A DNA stretch of 64,000 nt from an uncultured Glaciecola sp. Lineage in GTDB: Bacteria; Pseudomonadota; Gammaproteobacteria; Enterobacterales; Alteromonadaceae. The notes beneath the pieces were generated by a model. The model did no database searches. It had not been told where the DNA came from and saw only the letters and a list, made by a program, of their open reading frames with translations. This document shows, one piece after another, positions 17,365-57,691 of the stretch (its first letter is position 1; every line of letters starts with the position of its first letter). The DNA lies in contig NZ_CALJHY010000007.1 in NCBI RefSeq assembly GCF_937770335.1, positions 434,001 to 498,000 of the forward strand, read 5' to 3'. Made by a program: the position numbers and the translations under genes.

Positions 17365-18333
17365 ATGAATTGGAAATCTGCTTTGTATTCGGATTTAGTC
17401 GGTACCAATTTAGAAAGCTGGATTGCGACTCTGATTCCTCAAATCGAAAACTGGGAAACACATGCAAATCATGGCGATACTAAAAAATGGCAAAAGCAAT
17501 TACAACAACTTCCTGTAATTACGCCCAACGACATTGATTTAAAAACGCAAGTTTCTTTCACCCAAGACGGCAGTCTTGGTAACGCGCAACTAGCGCACAT
17601 CGAATCCGTGTTAAAGCAATTTATGCCGTGGCGAAAAGGTCCATTTCACCTCTTCGGTATCGACATTGATACTGAGTGGCAATCGGATTGGAAATGGGAC
17701 CGAGTTTTACCTCATATTGCACCATTAGCGAACAAAAAAGTGCTCGATGTAGGGTGTGGTAGCGGATATCACTTATTCAGAATGCTAGGTGAAGATGCTA
17801 AGTTAGTTATCGGTATTGACCCGACAGCGCTTTTTTTCTATCAGTTTCAGATTTTCAAAAAGTACTTACCAGAGCATAGCATTCATTATATACCGCTAGG
17901 CATCGAAGACATGCCCGAGTTAAATGTTTTTGACACCGTGTTCTCTATGGGTGTGTTATATCACCGTCGTGATCCTATTGAATTTTTATATCAGTTGAAG
18001 AATCAACTAGCTAGTGGTGGTCAATTGGTTCTTGAAACGATCGTTATCGACGGCGATGAGACGTCGGTTCTAATGCCGGGCGAACGTTACGCGCAAATGC
18101 GCAACGTCTGGTTTTTGCCAAGCTGTGAGGCATTGATGCAATGGCTTTCACGTGTCGGCTTTGTCAATATTCAAAAGGTCGATGAAAACATAACATCCAT
18201 CGAAGAACAAAGAGCAACCCAATGGATGACAAATCATTCATTAGTCGATTTTTTAGACCCCAATGATCCCACCCTTACAGTTGAAGGTTACCCTGCCCCA
18301 AAACGAGCCGTTTTTGTTGCTACAAAAAAATAG
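17365..18333 (+). CDS. cmoB: tRNA U34 carboxymethyltransferase CmoB
   Basis: 322-residue enzyme that transfers the carboxymethyl group from carboxy-SAM to 5-hydroxyuridine in tRNA. ATG 17365 is chosen because AAAGGATAG precedes it and the product then starts MNWKSAL; a longer frame would overlap cmoA by 65 bases. The SAM motif KVLDVGCGSGYHLFRMLG, IGIDPTALFFYQF and SMGVLYHRRDP are family signatures. End of the cmoAB operon. Confidence 0.95.
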   Translation: MNWKSALYSDLVGTNLESWIATLIPQIENWETHANHGDTKKWQKQLQQLPVITPNDIDLKTQVSFTQDGSLGNAQLAHIESVLKQFMPWRKGPFHLFGIDIDTEWQSDWKWDRVLPHIAPLANKKVLDVGCGSGYHLFRMLGEDAKLVIGIDPTALFFYQFQIFKKYLPEHSIHYIPLGIEDMPELNVFDTVFSMGVLYHRRDPIEFLYQLKNQLASGGQLVLETIVIDGDETSVLMPGERYAQMRNVWFLPSCEALMQWLSRVGFVNIQKVDENITSIEEQRATQWMTNHSLVDFLDPNDPTLTVEGYPAPKRAVFVATKK

Positions 18334-18435
18334 CGATTAGTAAGCTAGAAAGTACCTTTATTGAATTGCAGCGCTCCTTTGTTGGCATAGTCTTTGAATA
18401 GTATTTGAGTACATTAACACTCATTTTCGTCATGT

Positions 18436-18457
18436 ATATGGCCATCATATGGCTATC
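18436..18457. repeat. Two tandem 11-bp direct repeats upstream of the glucosylglycerate operon
   Basis: Adjacent copies of ATATGGCYATC, one helical turn apart, lying 77-98 bp before glyK in a 200-bp gap. The phasing suits a transcription factor that binds one face of the DNA. I could not assign a convincing -35/-10 pair here. Confidence 0.45.
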
Positions 18458-18533
18458 ACGATAATATTTGACTGGAATACTGATTGTTTAGTTTCACTGC
18501 GATGCGATGTACTCATTGCTATAAAGGGCTTTA

Positions 18534-19442
18534 ATGCAACAACTAACAACATTGATTGAACAATACATTATTAAAGAGAAGCTCCCCAAAGCCTATCTTG
18601 ATGTTGCACTAAAGTGGTTCAAGCCACTGTGCGATTCAATTCAATTGCACCATAATAAATCAAACAAGTTAGGGCTCAGCAGCAATAGTCCTTACTTTAT
18701 AGGTGTTAATGGTTGTCAGGGTTCTGGTAAGTCAACATTGAGTGGTTTAATGAGTCACTTATTTACAACGTATTATGAAAAAAAATCTATCGTTCTGTCA
18801 TTGGACGACTTTTATTATATGAAAGCAGAACGCATGAACTTGTCTCAAACAGTACATCCTTTGTTGGCCATGAGAGGAGTACCCGGAACGCATGACACTC
18901 AACTGATGTCTCAGGTATTTCAATCGTTAGCGTTAAATCAAGCTGTAGATATTCCCACTTTCGACAAATCAATCGATGATCGTGCGCCCGTTAGTCAATG
19001 GCAAAAAATCATTTCTCCCGTTGATATCGTTATAATGGAAGGTTGGTGCTGGGGAACGCAAGCGCAAGAAGAGCAAGCCTTAGAAACAGCGGTCAATGAA
19101 CTCGAAGAAAAACACGATGGCGATGGCACTTGGCGCCGCTATGTTAATTCAGCTCTTAAGAATAGTTACACCCCTCTTTACGAATACATGAATACGTGGG
19201 TATTTTTGCAAGCGCCTAGTTTTGATGCTGTGTATGCATGGCGTCTGCAACAGGAAGAAAAGCTGAGACAGCGTGTTGGTAATGTGTCTACTATAATGAG
19301 TGATGAAGATATTCTTATATTTATTCAATATTATCAGAGGTTGACCCAACACACTTTATGTACATTTGGTAATCAGGCTGATTTTATATTCACATTAGAT
19401 AATTCAAGAAACATTACCAAAAGTAGACATAATGCCAAGTGA
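18534..19442 (+). CDS. glyK: Plant-type D-glycerate 3-kinase
   Basis: 302-residue P-loop kinase of the GLYK type. The nucleotide site GVNGCQGSGKST is at 57-68, followed by LSLDDFYYM (Walker B-like) and HPLLAMRGVPGTHD, the substrate region typical of glycerate 3-kinases. It is predicted to phosphorylate D-glycerate to 3-phosphoglycerate. First gene of a four-gene operon; it overlaps the phosphatase by 11 bases. In this setting it would return the glycerate released from glucosylglycerate to the pool used by the synthase. Pantothenate kinase or uridine kinase are excluded by the HPLL...GTHD block. Confidence 0.82.
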   Translation: MQQLTTLIEQYIIKEKLPKAYLDVALKWFKPLCDSIQLHHNKSNKLGLSSNSPYFIGVNGCQGSGKSTLSGLMSHLFTTYYEKKSIVLSLDDFYYMKAERMNLSQTVHPLLAMRGVPGTHDTQLMSQVFQSLALNQAVDIPTFDKSIDDRAPVSQWQKIISPVDIVIMEGWCWGTQAQEEQALETAVNELEEKHDGDGTWRRYVNSALKNSYTPLYEYMNTWVFLQAPSFDAVYAWRLQQEEKLRQRVGNVSTIMSDEDILIFIQYYQRLTQHTLCTFGNQADFIFTLDNSRNITKSRHNAK

Positions 19443-20316
19443 ACTAATTAGTAAATATAAACGACAAGTCCTGATTTTCACCGATTTGGACGGCACACTC
19501 TTAGACCACTATAGCTATGACCATGAAGATGCCAAGGTATGTATGGAGAGACTCTTAGGCCATGGTATTCCGATCATTCCAAATACCAGTAAAACGTTTG
19601 CTGAAGTGTTGCAACTGCGTAAAACCCTAGCATTGAGTGGTCCTTTTATTATCGAAAATGGTGCCGCCATTTTTATTAATAAAGACTGGCTACCAGAAAA
19701 ACCTAAAGGCGCAGTTTGGCAGGATGGTTTCTGGGTGAAATCCTTTAGTTCAAAACGAAATTATTGGTTAGGACTGATCAAAAAAATCACGCCTGAGCAT
19801 GGTCATCTTTTTGAATCATTCGCAAATATGTCACTTCAACGAATTGTAGAGTTAACCGGACTGACAGAAGAAGATGCCCTACTCTCATCGCAACGCCAAT
19901 TCGGTGAACCTTTGTTTTGGAAAGGGAGTGATGAGCAATTGCGAAGCTTTATTATCATATTACATCGCTTAGGAGCCCATCCCGTAAGTGGTGGACGATT
20001 TTTACATATTGGTGGCAATTGTAACAAAGGTGTCGCGCTAACTTGGTTGCTTAAGGAATACCAGCGTCAACATAAGGGAGTAACAATAAGCACCATTGCT
20101 TTGGGTGATGGAAAAAACGACGTTTCAATGCTGGAAGTTGCAGATACGGCTGTGCGTATAGCTTCTCCCGTGCATGAGCCTCCTCAGTTAGAAAGAAAAC
20201 TAAAATTATATACTAGCAATAAAATGGGTCCAAAAGGTTGGGCTGAAGTACTTGATCACCTCATTCCTGAATCAGTATTTTTGAATCCAACCCAGCAACC
20301 TAATAAAACAATTTAA
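19432..20316 (+). CDS. Glucosyl/mannosyl-3-phosphoglycerate phosphatase (HAD-IIB)
   Basis: 294-residue HAD-superfamily phosphatase of the mannosyl-3-phosphoglycerate phosphatase (MPGP/YedP) family. Motif I is FTDLDGTLLDH (Asp18, Asp20); the later motif GDGKNDVSMLEVAD binds magnesium; IENGAAIFI and SGGRFLHIGG are typical of the family. Lying before a GT81 synthase, it should dephosphorylate glucosyl-3-phosphoglycerate to glucosylglycerate. Sugar specificity cannot be read from the sequence alone. It starts inside glyK and ends ten bases before gpgS. Confidence 0.82.
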   Translation: MPSELISKYKRQVLIFTDLDGTLLDHYSYDHEDAKVCMERLLGHGIPIIPNTSKTFAEVLQLRKTLALSGPFIIENGAAIFINKDWLPEKPKGAVWQDGFWVKSFSSKRNYWLGLIKKITPEHGHLFESFANMSLQRIVELTGLTEEDALLSSQRQFGEPLFWKGSDEQLRSFIIILHRLGAHPVSGGRFLHIGGNCNKGVALTWLLKEYQRQHKGVTISTIALGDGKNDVSMLEVADTAVRIASPVHEPPQLERKLKLYTSNKMGPKGWAEVLDHLIPESVFLNPTQQPNKTI

Positions 20317-20326
20317 GGAGCTACAT

Positions 20327-21556
20327 GTGGCTGATTTTTATCAAAATGGTATAGTAACTACGCTACACAATTTAGAAGATCGTTCAATTGAAGATCTAGA
20401 GGCCGAGTTAAGTGAGTTCTCGAAAAAACGCCCCTTAGGCTTAATTCTTCCTTCATTATTTTCTGAGTTAGAAGGAACCGCACTGCCAGCCACCATCGAG
20501 CACATAAAAAAAGTGCCATACCTTTCTGAAATAGTAATCGGTCTTGATCGTGCTAACCTAGATGAATACAAACATGCACTCACGTTTTTCTCGACGTTGC
20601 CTCAACACCATCGAATCTTATGGAATGACGGTCCACGACTAAAGGCACTCGATGCGGAATTACAAGCACTTGGTTTGGCGCCAAAAGAGTTAGGAAAAGG
20701 TAGAAATGTTTGGTATTGCATGGGCTATATACTGGCATCAGGCAAAGTTGAGAGTGTGGCATTGCATGATTGTGATATTTTGACATATGAACGCTCTTTG
20801 CTCGCCAGACTTATTTATCCCGTAGCAAATCCGCAATTCAACTATGAGTTTTGTAAAGGGTTTTACGCACGAGTTGCCAACGGTAAAATAAATGGTCGTG
20901 TTTCACGATTATTGGTGACTCCCCTTTTGAGAGCCCTAAAAATGACATTAGGTCCAAATGACTATTTAGACTTTATGGATAGCTTCCGCTATCCATTGGC
21001 TGGAGAGTTTTCTTTTAGAAGAGATGTTCTTAATGATATTAGAATTCCAAGCGACTGGGGCTTAGAAATCGGTGTTTTATCCGAAATGCATAGAAATTAT
21101 TCACATAATAGGCTGTGCCAAGCTGATATCGCAAAAACATATGACCATAAACATCAAGATCTGTCACTGGACAATGAACAAGGTGGCTTATCTAAAATGT
21201 CGATAGACATTACGAAAGCCTTATTCAGAAAATTGGCGACACAAGGAACAACCTTCAATACGGAAACATTCAGAACCATAAAAGCAACGTACTTTAGAAT
21301 TGCATTGGATTTTATTGAAACATATCACAATGATGCTGTGATGAATGGCTTGAAATTAGATATTCACAACGAAGAAAAGGCCGTTGAAATGTTTGCTCAC
21401 AACATCATGAAAGCAGGACAAAGCTTTTTAGAGAACCCGATGGAAACGCCATTCATACCTAGTTGGAACCGTGTAGTTAGTGCAAAGCCAGATGTGTTGG
21501 AGTGTCTAAAGAAAGCAGTTGAGGAAGACTTCCAAGAATTTAGTAAGGGACAATAA
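20327..21556 (+). CDS. gpgS: Glucosyl-3-phosphoglycerate synthase (GT81)
   Basis: 409-residue GT-A glycosyltransferase that joins glucose from an NDP-glucose to 3-phosphoglycerate. The metal motif is HDCDILTY (Asp148-Cys-Asp150) and GKGRNVWY is the phosphoglycerate/nucleotide region; [12 protein letters not shown] and [11 protein letters not shown] are family signatures. The start is GTG 20327, six bases after AAGGAG. An ATG two bases earlier is out of frame and leads to a stop after nine codons. Third gene of the operon, one base before the phosphorylase. Confidence 0.85.
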
Positions 21557-21557
21557 T

Positions 21558-23342
21558 ATGACAGACCATTTCCTTCAATTTTCCGCGAAAGTAAAACACC
21601 ATTTGGAAGTGGTCTATAAAGACATACTAACCCCATCTGAAATAGAGTTACTTGTACCCAAATTGCAGACGAGTATCGGTGTTATTAGCGCTGATGATTG
21701 TCATTATCCAACACCTCATAAGAATCGTTGGGACGAGTCAGACATCATTATGATTACGTATGGCGATAGTGTTGTTGAGAACACAGAAGGTTCTGAATTC
21801 GGTTTTAGTCAAAAGCCATTAAAAACACTCCGACGTTTTATTAATGAATACTGTGACTCAATTATTAGTCATGTGCATATATTGCCATATTTCCCATATA
21901 GCTCAGATGATGGTTTTTCTATCATTGATTACTCCGTCGTTAGTCAAAGCTTAGGCGATTGGGATGATATTGAAGCCATTTCGAAAGAATATGGGCTAAT
22001 GACTGACATTGTTATTAATCACTGCTCAGCACGAAGTAAGTGGTTTGAAAACTTTAGCCAGCAAGATGGTATTGGCAGCGACTATTTTTTTACAGCATCA
22101 CCCGACGACGATCTGAGTATGGTTGTACGACCAAGAACATCAGACCTTTTGAAATCAGTTGATACCCCCAATGGCACAAAGCATGTATGGTGCACGTTTA
22201 GCCATGACCAGGTGGATTTTGATTTTAGAAACCCAAATGTATTCATTGCCTTCATTGACATTATTCGCCTATATTTAGACAAAGGAACCACAGTTTTTCG
22301 TTTAGATGCAATCGCATTTTTATGGAAAGTACCTGGTAGCCAAAGTATAAATTTAGTAGAAACACACGAAGTAGTTCGTCTATTAAGAACGCTGATCGAG
22401 CATACGGCGCCAGATACCATAATCATTACCGAGACTAACATTCCGAATAGAGAAAACCTGACTTATTTCGGTAATGCTAACGAAGCTCACGCTATTTATA
22501 ACTTCTCATTACCCCCACTGCTTATAAATACCCTTGTAACAGGTGATTGTAGTTATTTAAAAAGTTGGATGATGAGCATGCCGCCTGCTCAAAACGGGAC
22601 GACCTACTTCAATTTCATAGCATCTCATGATGGTGTTGGCTTGCGACCTGCTGAAGGCCTGTTGGATGATCAAGAAATTACGGAGCTTGCCAATTGTATG
22701 CAAAATTTTGGTGGTAAGGTTTCTTGGAGAAAAACAGAAAATGGGCAACAAAAACCCTATGAAATGAATATTGCTCTAATCGATGCTCTTAAAGGAACGA
22801 CCAAAGGACCCGATCAATACCAACTGCAGCGTTTTATTTGCGCACATGCAATCATGCTTGGGCTAGAGGGTATTCCAGGTATTTATATTCATTCGTTGCT
22901 AGGTACACCAAATGATGATGATAAAGTCAAAAATACAGGTCAAAATCGAGGTATTAACCGTCATCGTTGGGATTTTGGCAAGCTAGTTGATGCGTTGAAC
23001 ACCACGCAAAGCACACATGCCAAAATACTATCTGGCTTATCTATGCTAATTAGAATTAGACGTTCGCAGCCTGCATTTCACCCAAATGCAACTCAGTTCA
23101 CGTTACAGTTAGGCAAAGCAATCTTTGGTTATTGGAGGCAAAGTATAGACCGAAAACAAAGTATCTTTTGTTTGTCAAACATTACCGATGAGATACAAGA
23201 AGTGAGATTGTCAGATATTAATCTTATTGAAAACAATTTATGGTATGACTTAGTAGCCGCAGCATCAATAAACCCGGCAACTGACCAGTTCTTGCTTGCT
23301 CCTTACCAAACTATGTGGATTTCAAATAAAGCCACAGGTTAA
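21558..23342 (+). CDS. GH13_18 phosphorylase, probable glucosylglycerate phosphorylase
   Basis: 594-residue (alpha/beta)8-barrel enzyme of the sucrose phosphorylase subfamily. The nucleophile is Asp250 (FRLDAIAF), the acid/base Glu292 (ITETNIP) and the stabiliser Asp358 (SHDGVGLRP). The SHDG-GLRPAEG loop occurs in sucrose 6'-phosphate and glucosylglycerate phosphorylases rather than in classical sucrose phosphorylase. Next to gpgS and a glycerate kinase, phosphorolysis of glucosylglycerate to glucose 1-phosphate and glycerate is the best reading. ATG 21558 follows AAGGGAC and the gpgS stop by one base. A weak hairpin without T-run overlaps the stop codon. Confidence 0.8.
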
Positions 23343-23397
23343 CGCCTGCGGCTTCGTATTTACCAAAAAAAAATTCATCAAAACAACGATATATTGC

Positions 23398-24192
23398 CTA
23401 CTCGTAGGTTCTGTCTCGTTTCAATTCAATTGTATCTATATAACCATGCCAGCTAGCATAGCCAATAATTGGCATGATAACTAAAAACGCAAAGAAAAAG
23501 GTAACAAAACCTATAAACACTGATAGACAGATAATGGATGCCCAAAAGAACATTGCTCTTTTATTTAACCATACCGCATTCATGCTGGTGAGTACCGCGG
23601 TCGCTAAATCAACCCGGCGTTCCAACAATATTGGTTGCGTAAATGCCGTTATAAAGAAGACCAGAACGGTCAATACTGCACCTACTATGGTGCCAATAAT
23701 CAAGAACGTAGCAAGACTCGCTAAGGTGTATGCTTCATTTTCTGGATAAAATGCATGAATTAGCGATGCAATTCGTAACCAAAAAATCATCAAAAACATC
23801 AGTAATAGAGCAAAGCCCCATTCATTCACCGCATTTCTGGACATTGCTTTAAGAGAATGACGAAAAGAAGGATTATTTTTTTTCTCAAATTGCCATGCAA
23901 CGTCATATAGCCCAGCGGCTAAAAAGGGTCCCATTAACATGAAACAAACCATTGCTGGAAATATGATCATGTACCAACCTGTCGAATCGATTAGATAATA
24001 AATAAACCAAGGTATGACAGTAAAGATAGCGCCATAAGTAAAGCTTATAAGGGGTGCTCTTTTAAAATCATTGACGGCCAGAGTTAGCCACTTTATTGGA
24101 TCAAACACGTCTAACTTTTTACAAGGTATAACGCGAGCGATACCACTGTCCTTGATCCCTTCTTCTGGCGTTTCGTCGAACTGCTGAGACAT
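23398..24192 (-). CDS. DUF2189 integral membrane protein
   Basis: 264 residues with about six hydrophobic segments (near 53-68, 73-92, 125-148, 155-180, 213-230 and 232-250). It has the DUF2189 pattern: KKLDVFDPIKWLTLA before the first segment, and GPFLAAGLYDVAWQFEK in the first loop. Function is unknown; members are often cytochrome c oxidase-associated by annotation only. It is transcribed toward the glucosylglycerate operon and lies alone. Confidence 0.78.
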   Translation of the reverse strand: MSQQFDETPEEGIKDSGIARVIPCKKLDVFDPIKWLTLAVNDFKRAPLISFTYGAIFTVIPWFIYYLIDSTGWYMIIFPAMVCFMLMGPFLAAGLYDVAWQFEKKNNPSFRHSLKAMSRNAVNEWGFALLLMFLMIFWLRIASLIHAFYPENEAYTLASLATFLIIGTIVGAVLTVLVFFITAFTQPILLERRVDLATAVLTSMNAVWLNKRAMFFWASIICLSVFIGFVTFFFAFLVIMPIIGYASWHGYIDTIELKRDRTYE

Positions 24193-24316: not shown

Positions 24317-24853
24317 TCACGGAAAATTAATATTAGCTTCGTGCCAATTGATATTGGTTAAAAAAAGTGCAGAAAGTGCCTCATTTAGTTGACTAAAGCT
24401 AGTAATTTTAGGTTTTTCGCTTGCACCTGTTAGCATTTCTAGTACAAACCGATGACAGTTATTATTAATTACATGATATTCACGCAACTGGTAAAGATTA
24501 TCAATGCACCTTTGCGCAACGTCTTGTGCAGCTAAAGGTATAAAATTGTCATTACAAGCGACATATATTTTTTCGCCACTTCTATGCTGCAAAAATCGTG
24601 CAGGAGAAATTGAACGGATTAAACCGCGTCCGCTTAACTCATAAATATTGCCGTTTACCCAAACACCTGTATGGTCAAAAATGCCATAAATAGAACAGGT
24701 AACGATAGCGCCATTTTTCGGAACGACACGCTTGGACGATTCACCCGGTAATTTGCACACGATATTTGTGCGTTTTAAATAGGCATCGTTTGCCCGATTT
24801 GAGGCGTACAATCCTACACAAGCAGCACCTAACCACAACAATGGAGCAGGCAT
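24317..24853 (-). CDS. LRAT/NlpC-P60-like membrane-anchored protein
   Basis: 178-residue protein starting at ATG 24853, chosen because GGAGG lies five bases upstream. One hydrophobic N-terminal segment (about 3-17) is followed by a domain resembling lecithin:retinol acyltransferase-like thiol hydrolases. It has a His in FDHTGVWVNGNIYEL and a candidate nucleophile Cys in NNNCHRFVLEMLTG, comparable to NCEHF in that superfamily. Such proteins act on lipid acyl or peptide bonds; substrate unknown. The C-terminal 40 residues look unstructured. A non-catalytic role cannot be excluded. Confidence 0.5.
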   Translation of the reverse strand: MPAPLLWLGAACVGLYASNRANDAYLKRTNIVCKLPGESSKRVVPKNGAIVTCSIYGIFDHTGVWVNGNIYELSGRGLIRSISPARFLQHRSGEKIYVACNDNFIPLAAQDVAQRCIDNLYQLREYHVINNNCHRFVLEMLTGASEKPKITSFSQLNEALSALFLTNINWHEANINFP

Positions 24854-25023
24854 AAAAACCTCCGAAATAGTAACCACATTATGAGCGTCACTTTATATTA
24901 CGTTAATAGTTGATAATTTAAGCAATAAAAATGTGACAAAACTTGTCATCCCCCCTTAACAGGAGGTTCTACCTGTATTACTCTTAGCATCAATCTACTA
25001 TTTAGTCTTGAGACCAATAATTA

Positions 25024-57399: not shown

Positions 57400-57476
57400 T
57401 GGCGGAGTGGACGGGACTCGAACCCGCGACCCCCGGCGTGACAGGCCGGTATTCTAACCAACTGAACTACCACTCC
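57400..57476 (-). tRNA. tRNA-Asp(GUC), copy 3 in transcription order
   Basis: 77 nt including encoded CCA. Acceptor GGAGTGG / CCACTCC, anticodon stem-loop CCTGTCACG with GUC, T-loop GGTTCGAGTCC. Sequence is identical to the two copies upstream. Confidence 0.97.
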
Positions 57477-57511
57477 GCAGTGGTATGTATTTAGCTATGC
57501 TTTATGACGAA

Positions 57512-57588
57512 TGGCGGAGTGGACGGGACTCGAACCCGCGACCCCCGGCGTGACAGGCCGGTATTCTAACCAACTGAACTACCACTCC
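57512..57588 (-). tRNA. tRNA-Asp(GUC), copy 2
   Basis: Same 77-nt sequence as its neighbours, separated from copy 3 by 35 bases and from copy 1 by 26. The spacers differ, apart from short shared bits (TTTATGACG / CGTCATAAA). Confidence 0.97.
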
Positions 57589-57614
57589 GCAAAATGCGTC
57601 ATAAAACTTGTAAT

Positions 57615-57691
57615 TGGCGGAGTGGACGGGACTCGAACCCGCGACCCCCGGCGTGACAGGCCGGTATTCTAACCAACTGAACTACCACTCC
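57615..57691 (-). tRNA. tRNA-Asp(GUC), copy 1, promoter-proximal
   Basis: First of three identical tRNA-Asp genes behind a stable-RNA promoter. No rRNA genes are in the window. Confidence 0.97.

Follow-up and report, generated by a model that had tools for sequence, protein, structure and literature searches.

A cluster of four genes in DNA of an uncultured Glaciecola sp. raises the question of whether a single operon can both make the osmolyte glucosylglycerate (GG) and recycle it. The breakdown of GG in the cell has been little tested, and a conserved operon with both arms in cultivable Alteromonas-type bacteria offers a tractable place to test it. An earlier note, made from the sequence of the window (the whole stretch of 64,000 nucleotides that was analysed), had assigned the genes to a glucosyl-3-phosphoglycerate synthase (GpgS), a phosphatase (GpgP), a GH13_18 phosphorylase and a glycerate 3-kinase of the plant type (GLYK), and had proposed a synthesis pathway joined to phosphorolytic recycling. 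The four assignments are supported by family models, by signature residues, by a gene order that is kept in relatives and by the co-occurrence of glycerate kinases, and this pathway is the best reading. We conclude that the locus, from a marine bacterium of Glaciecola type, is very probably an operon for the synthesis and salvage of GG.

In the proposed pathway, GpgS would attach the glucose of NDP-glucose to 3-phosphoglycerate. Removal of phosphate from the resulting glucosyl-3-phosphoglycerate by the phosphatase would give GG, a compatible solute. Once GG is no longer needed, the glucosylglycerate phosphorylase (GGaP) would use phosphate to cleave it, yielding glucose 1-phosphate and D-glycerate; GLYK would then spend one ATP to turn D-glycerate back into 3-phosphoglycerate, and glucose 1-phosphate could re-enter metabolism via GalU or phosphoglucomutase. 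Such an operon would presumably act on the substrates named, run GGaP towards breakdown in the cell, be read as a single transcript and respond to osmotic or nitrogen control; control of the osmolyte pool by phosphate and ATP status, also raised in the earlier note, is speculation.

Organization of the locus

The description of four tightly packed genes was borne out by the open reading frames, their coordinates and their family matches: the open reading frame list of the window contains a same-strand (+) set with outer coordinates 18534-23342 (Table 1). The GLYK and phosphatase genes overlap by 11 nt, and a 10-nt gap separates the phosphatase gene from that of GpgS. The GH13_18 open reading frame as listed begins with a TTG at 21519, within the preceding glucosyltransferase gene. 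The ATG at 21558 is the likelier start; it sits 1 nt past the glucosyltransferase stop, and the protein that begins there aligns with its four closest relatives from residue 1.

Table 1. Genes of the locus and its flanks (positions are those of the window)
Feature	Position	Strand	Basis
GLYK-type D-glycerate 3-kinase, 302 aa	18534-19442	+	Pfam, PDB sequence matches
Predicted glucosyl-3-phosphoglycerate phosphatase, HAD-IIB, MpgP/GpgP family, 294 aa	19432-20316	+	NCBIfam, PDB
Putative glucosyl-3-phosphoglycerate synthase, GpgS type, 409 aa, GTG start	20327-21556	+	NF040724, PDB, context
Predicted glucosylglycerate phosphorylase (GGaP), GH13_18, 594 aa, ATG start	21558-23342	+	TETN and loop A Glu
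cmoA, cmoB	upstream of the four genes		
DUF2189 gene	downstream of the four genes	- (opposite)	

The tight packing suggests that the four genes are carried by one transcript. A consensus scan of positions 18250-23500 returned 16 promoter-like sites, versus 16.0 in shuffled sequences, and with a total thus not above shuffles it placed none on the + strand before 18534. Six terminator-like sites were found in the same region, versus 3.7 expected (sd 2.0), none of them on the + strand after 23342. Aligned with two relatives, the upstream region agreed partially with one (L041) and little with the other (L042), and we claim no motif there. Elsewhere in the window, three tandem tRNA-Asp (gtc) genes occupy 57400-57691 (- strand), and a small protein encoded at 24317-24877 (-) weakly resembles LRAT and PPPDE peptidases, scoring under both Pfam cut-offs.

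Conservation of the gene order

A survey of gene co-occurrence, which the earlier note had proposed as a check, was conducted on two sets. The first comprised 60 genomes, own genome included, of which 34 contain GpgS and 26 do not. In 29 of the 34 GpgS genomes, a single contig carries the genes on one strand, with small gaps between them, in the order GLYK-GpgP-GpgS-GGaP. The exceptions were G043 and G045, which are without GLYK at the locus, G052, where gpgS-gpgP is present without GGaP and GLYK, G051, with GGaP on a separate contig, and G054, with a convergent GGaP gene. The second set was obtained by a scan of genome contigs and consists of named loci, the best 80 of at least 582 confirmed relatives, and is thus biased to close relatives. 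All four genes stood in order on one strand in 65 of these 80 loci, including loci from Alteromonas, Paraglaciecola, Colwellia, Thalassotalea, Pseudoalteromonas, Methylophaga and Halieaceae, and the last three genes without GLYK in the other 15. The counts from the two sets are not independent, as some genomes are shared (e.g. L092 is G045, and L041 is G008). We conclude that marine Gammaproteobacteria commonly have the four genes in this order. The closest match of GpgS among the same best 80 of at least 582 relatives was that of Glaciecola sp. 33A (96%), own or very near genomes being possibly excluded.

In two relatives (G043 and G051), the GGaP gene adjoins galU divergently, with GalU over the TIGR01099 cut-off, an arrangement that fits the return of glucose 1-phosphate to UDP-glucose. 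The galU-GGaP sites are L023:4417-7373 and L027:7324-10401, and GGaP there does not stand beside gpgS on the same strand. In another relative, with a single-contig genome, the gpgS match is split into two overlapping pieces (G003:C1:1931545-1932767), which suggests a frameshift near residue 60.

Glycerate kinase and the direction of the proposed cycle

In searches with family models and against PDB sequences, all four proteins matched their families well above chance. The kinase scored 33.4 bits against the Pfam PRK model (cut-off 22), and its best PDB sequence matches were yeast 1odf, D-glycerate 3-kinase 6ckg (1.9e-21) and GLYK 7xpc (7.6e-20), with which it was aligned at the P-loop, DDF and G(T/S)HD stretches. 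Uridine kinases in the PDB followed far behind, at 2e-7 or worse, and eight NCBIfam kinase models matched, all far under cut-off. By these matches GLYK is a closer relative of the protein than are the kinases of uridine or pantothenate, and its family predicts 3-phosphoglycerate, rather than 2-phosphoglycerate, as the product.

The distribution of other glycerate kinases was then compared with that of operon GLYK. A GarK-type kinase (PF02595) was present in 3/3 GpgS genomes without GLYK (G043, G045 and G052) and in 0/31 with GLYK at the locus (Fisher 1.7e-4, kinship ignored). Among the 15 named loci without GLYK (from the best 80 of at least 582 relatives), 14 had searchable genomes, one of them (L092) being the genome of G045, and all 14 contained a glycerate kinase at another site: seven had the GarK type, six had GLYK and two had the MOFRL type (PF05161), G069 having both GarK and GLYK. 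No PF02595 match was found in 15 named genomes with operon GLYK, controls picked from the 65 complete loci of the same best 80 of at least 582 and lying mostly outside Alteromonadaceae. Inspection by eye of the open reading frame lists of the 15 GLYK-less loci, conducted without models, revealed no other kinase gene beside gpgP.

When any of the three glycerate kinase families was counted (GLYK at E 3.8e-35 or better), a kinase was present in 34/34 genomes with GpgS versus 14/26 without (Fisher 7e-6, kinship and genome size ignored), a contrast weakened by small or incomplete genomes in the latter set (one of 0.3 Mb). GLYK was also present in 6/26 relatives without GpgS and is therefore not tied to the GG pathway alone; in three of these six, no GG genes were seen by eye beside the orphan GLYK. 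The absence of GLYK from the locus in 15/80 of the named set and in 3/34 relatives counts against the GG reading, as does the genome (G052) that has gpgS-gpgP with neither GGaP nor GLYK. Overall, the pattern supports a dependence of the pathway on a glycerate kinase, a place that GLYK would fill here; PF02595 and PF05161 had no matches in the own genome.

High cellular phosphate usually favours phosphorolysis. Together with the complete GpgS-GpgP route alongside and with the absence of a glycerate transporter from within the four genes, this makes it improbable that GGaP is mainly synthetic, forming GG from glucose 1-phosphate and imported glycerate while GLYK competes for glycerate as a carbon source. 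Such a role would suit the position of GLYK, which in the own genome is the sole representative found of the three kinase families, and also the properties of GGaP, reported to be reversible and to have a D-glycerate KM of 1-5 mM (PMC11009771). We prefer synthesis by GpgS and GpgP, with GGaP acting in salvage.

Fusions of the kinase with the phosphatase

Fusions were surveyed in 95 loci (L022-L036 and L041-L120, the latter being the best 80 of at least 582 relatives). A GLYK open reading frame was present in 76 of the 95, and in 12 of these 76 it was fused with the phosphatase (L050, L053, L095, L096, L099, L100, L102, L104, L109, L110, L029 and L031), giving a product of 577-607 aa with the kinase part first. 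Ten fusions belong to the named loci, again the best 80 of at least 582 (Methylophaga, five; Pseudoalteromonas, three; Glaciecola HTCC2999, two), and two further ones to relatives G036 and G013. The P-loop pattern and two HAD patterns were present in all 12 fusions, and the DDF pattern in 11 of 12. A tree of the GLYK part calls for six changes of the fused state, two of which are forced by strongly supported branches; more than one origin or loss is therefore likely.

The fusions physically link kinase and phosphatase, which counts for the GG reading, and together with the pattern of kinase replacement they lend genetic support to a salvage arm ending in phosphoglycerate. A more far-reaching proposal, which we put forward tentatively and consider rather unlikely, is that a glycerate kinase is an obligate partner of GG cycling in marine Gammaproteobacteria, provided by operon GLYK or by GLYK or unrelated kinases elsewhere, and that in several lineages the GLYK-phosphatase fusion, acting at both ends of the cycle, could determine how large the osmolyte pool is.

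The phosphatase and the glucosyltransferase

The phosphatase scored 221.9 bits against TIGR01486 (cut-off 164.75), placing it in the MpgP/GpgP family, and 357.9 bits against NF001218, slightly short of the cut-off of 362. It matched PDB entries 1xvi, 1wzc and 3ztw and carries the HAD motif TDLDGTLLD near its N terminus. The glucosyltransferase matched the GpgS model NF040724 from end to end at 352.8 bits, about half the cut-off of 700, so that the curated NCBIfam cut-off for GpgS was not reached, and it scored 68.4 bits against NF010496 (cut-off 262). GpgS chains in the PDB matched residues 112-290 weakly (E about 1e-4), and an HDCDI stretch was invariant in 5/5 aligned rows. Because of the score below cut-off, we name the protein GpgS-type, on similarity and context, and consider it a putative GpgS with NDP-glucose as donor and 3-phosphoglycerate as acceptor. 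The weak model score and an NDP-sugar specificity that is unreadable from sequence count against the GG reading, as does the naming of the best phosphatase models for mannosyl-3-phosphoglycerate.

That naming would suit an operon that makes and recycles mannosylglycerate, its glycosyltransferase using GDP-mannose and its phosphatase acting on mannosyl-3-phosphoglycerate, and some GT81 enzymes accept both donors. We nevertheless find mannosylglycerate highly improbable, since the best glycosyltransferase model is GpgS, the phosphorylase bears GGaP signatures and belongs to GH13_18, an alpha-glucosyl type (see below), galU adjoins GGaP in two relatives, and a GT55 mannosylglycerate synthase, MpgS (PF09488), was found in 0/60 genomes, while 1/14 control genomes (Thermus composti) matched. 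Glucosylglycerate thus remains the preferred product.

Specificity of the phosphorylase

According to the cited part of a 2020 review (PMC7178133), a (T/S)ETN motif together with a loop A Glu sets GGaP apart from sucrose phosphorylase, and the same motifs served to name the GGaP of a marine bacterium in which a GT81 is also present (PMC10608839, as cited in part). The GH13_18 enzyme of the locus has TETN at residues 291-294, at beta-strand 5, and Glu402, within YEMN, in place of Gln in loop A. Thirty-six rows were aligned, made up of the query, E. coli YcjM and 34 homologues drawn from the own genome and from relatives; both signatures were present in 35 of these rows, among which the query and L001 are one identical sequence. 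YcjM, annotated as glucosylglycerate phosphorylase in NC_000913, is 38% identical and has both. The sole row without them is an own-genome GH13 paralogue (L037), 29% identical, which has Gln in loop A and carries the YQ loop given for sucrose phosphorylase. Both signatures were also present in 79/79 named loci with an open reading frame of at least 400 aa, among the best 80 of at least 582 relatives; L115, where the locus ends soon after the gene start, was excluded from this count.

The best reading of the GH13_18 enzyme is a predicted GGaP that would phosphorolyse 2-O-glucosylglycerate and not sucrose. A sucrose phosphorylase identity was rejected on the motifs and on the match to the TIGR03852 sucrose phosphorylase model, which at 180.6 bits is a match but falls under the cut-off of 334.4; with the neighbourhood kept across many genera, and with a separate sucrose phosphorylase-like paralogue with a YQ loop in the own genome, there is almost no chance that a sucrose or sucrose-phosphate phosphorylase stands beside gpgS by accident.

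Comparison with known systems

The earlier note had regarded the joined arrangement with GLYK as notable. This did not hold up: similar clusters are in print, as the cited parts of PMC7178133 and PMC11631117 indicate, and the order is common in relatives. According to the former, the 2020 review, gpgS, gpgP or a glycerate kinase gene is often found alongside GGaP genes, and experiments had at that time yet to confirm what GGaP does exactly in metabolism. The neighbourhoods of Franceus, Pinel and Desmet 2017 (AEM 83:e01434-17), as conveyed by the same part of PMC7178133, likewise have a kinase, gpgS or gpgP alongside GGaP, and TETN and the loop A Glu are common to the GGaPs described there and the one studied here. 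Compared with those neighbourhoods, as far as the review conveys them, the present locus has a plant-type GLYK and all four genes contiguous.

The kinase elsewhere in GLYK-less genomes, the absence of GarK with operon GLYK, and the GLYK-phosphatase fusion were not found in the literature searched. Nor did that literature, which lies mostly outside subscription journals, contain papers in which "glycerate kinase" occurs together with "mannosyl-3-phosphoglycerate phosphatase", a weak sign that the link is absent from print.

An operon for GG metabolism, with recycling to glucose 1-phosphate and 3-phosphoglycerate, was described in Prochlorococcus in 2024 (PMC11631117, as cited in part). In strain NATL2A, synthesis and GG recycling genes are co-located, as here, but an adjacent putative transporter gene is present, whereas the four-gene set studied here is without one. 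Persephonella marina shares the gpgS-gpgP pair for GG synthesis, and the cited passage names that pair only (PMC2874817). The ycj locus of E. coli K-12 (L021) encodes the GGaP homologue YcjM with the same signatures; no gpgS, gpgP or glycerate kinase is annotated in the surrounding 22 kb, and the neighbours of YcjM are an ABC transporter and enzymes that oxidise sugars, unlike the gene set studied here. The published kind of GG cluster, in which gpgS, gpgP, GGaP and glycerate kinase genes stand together, is what was found in the window. The four-gene cluster is real, but it is of an already described type that is common in marine relatives; since both this set of enzymes and the clustering of their genes have been published, the locus adds another example of that type.
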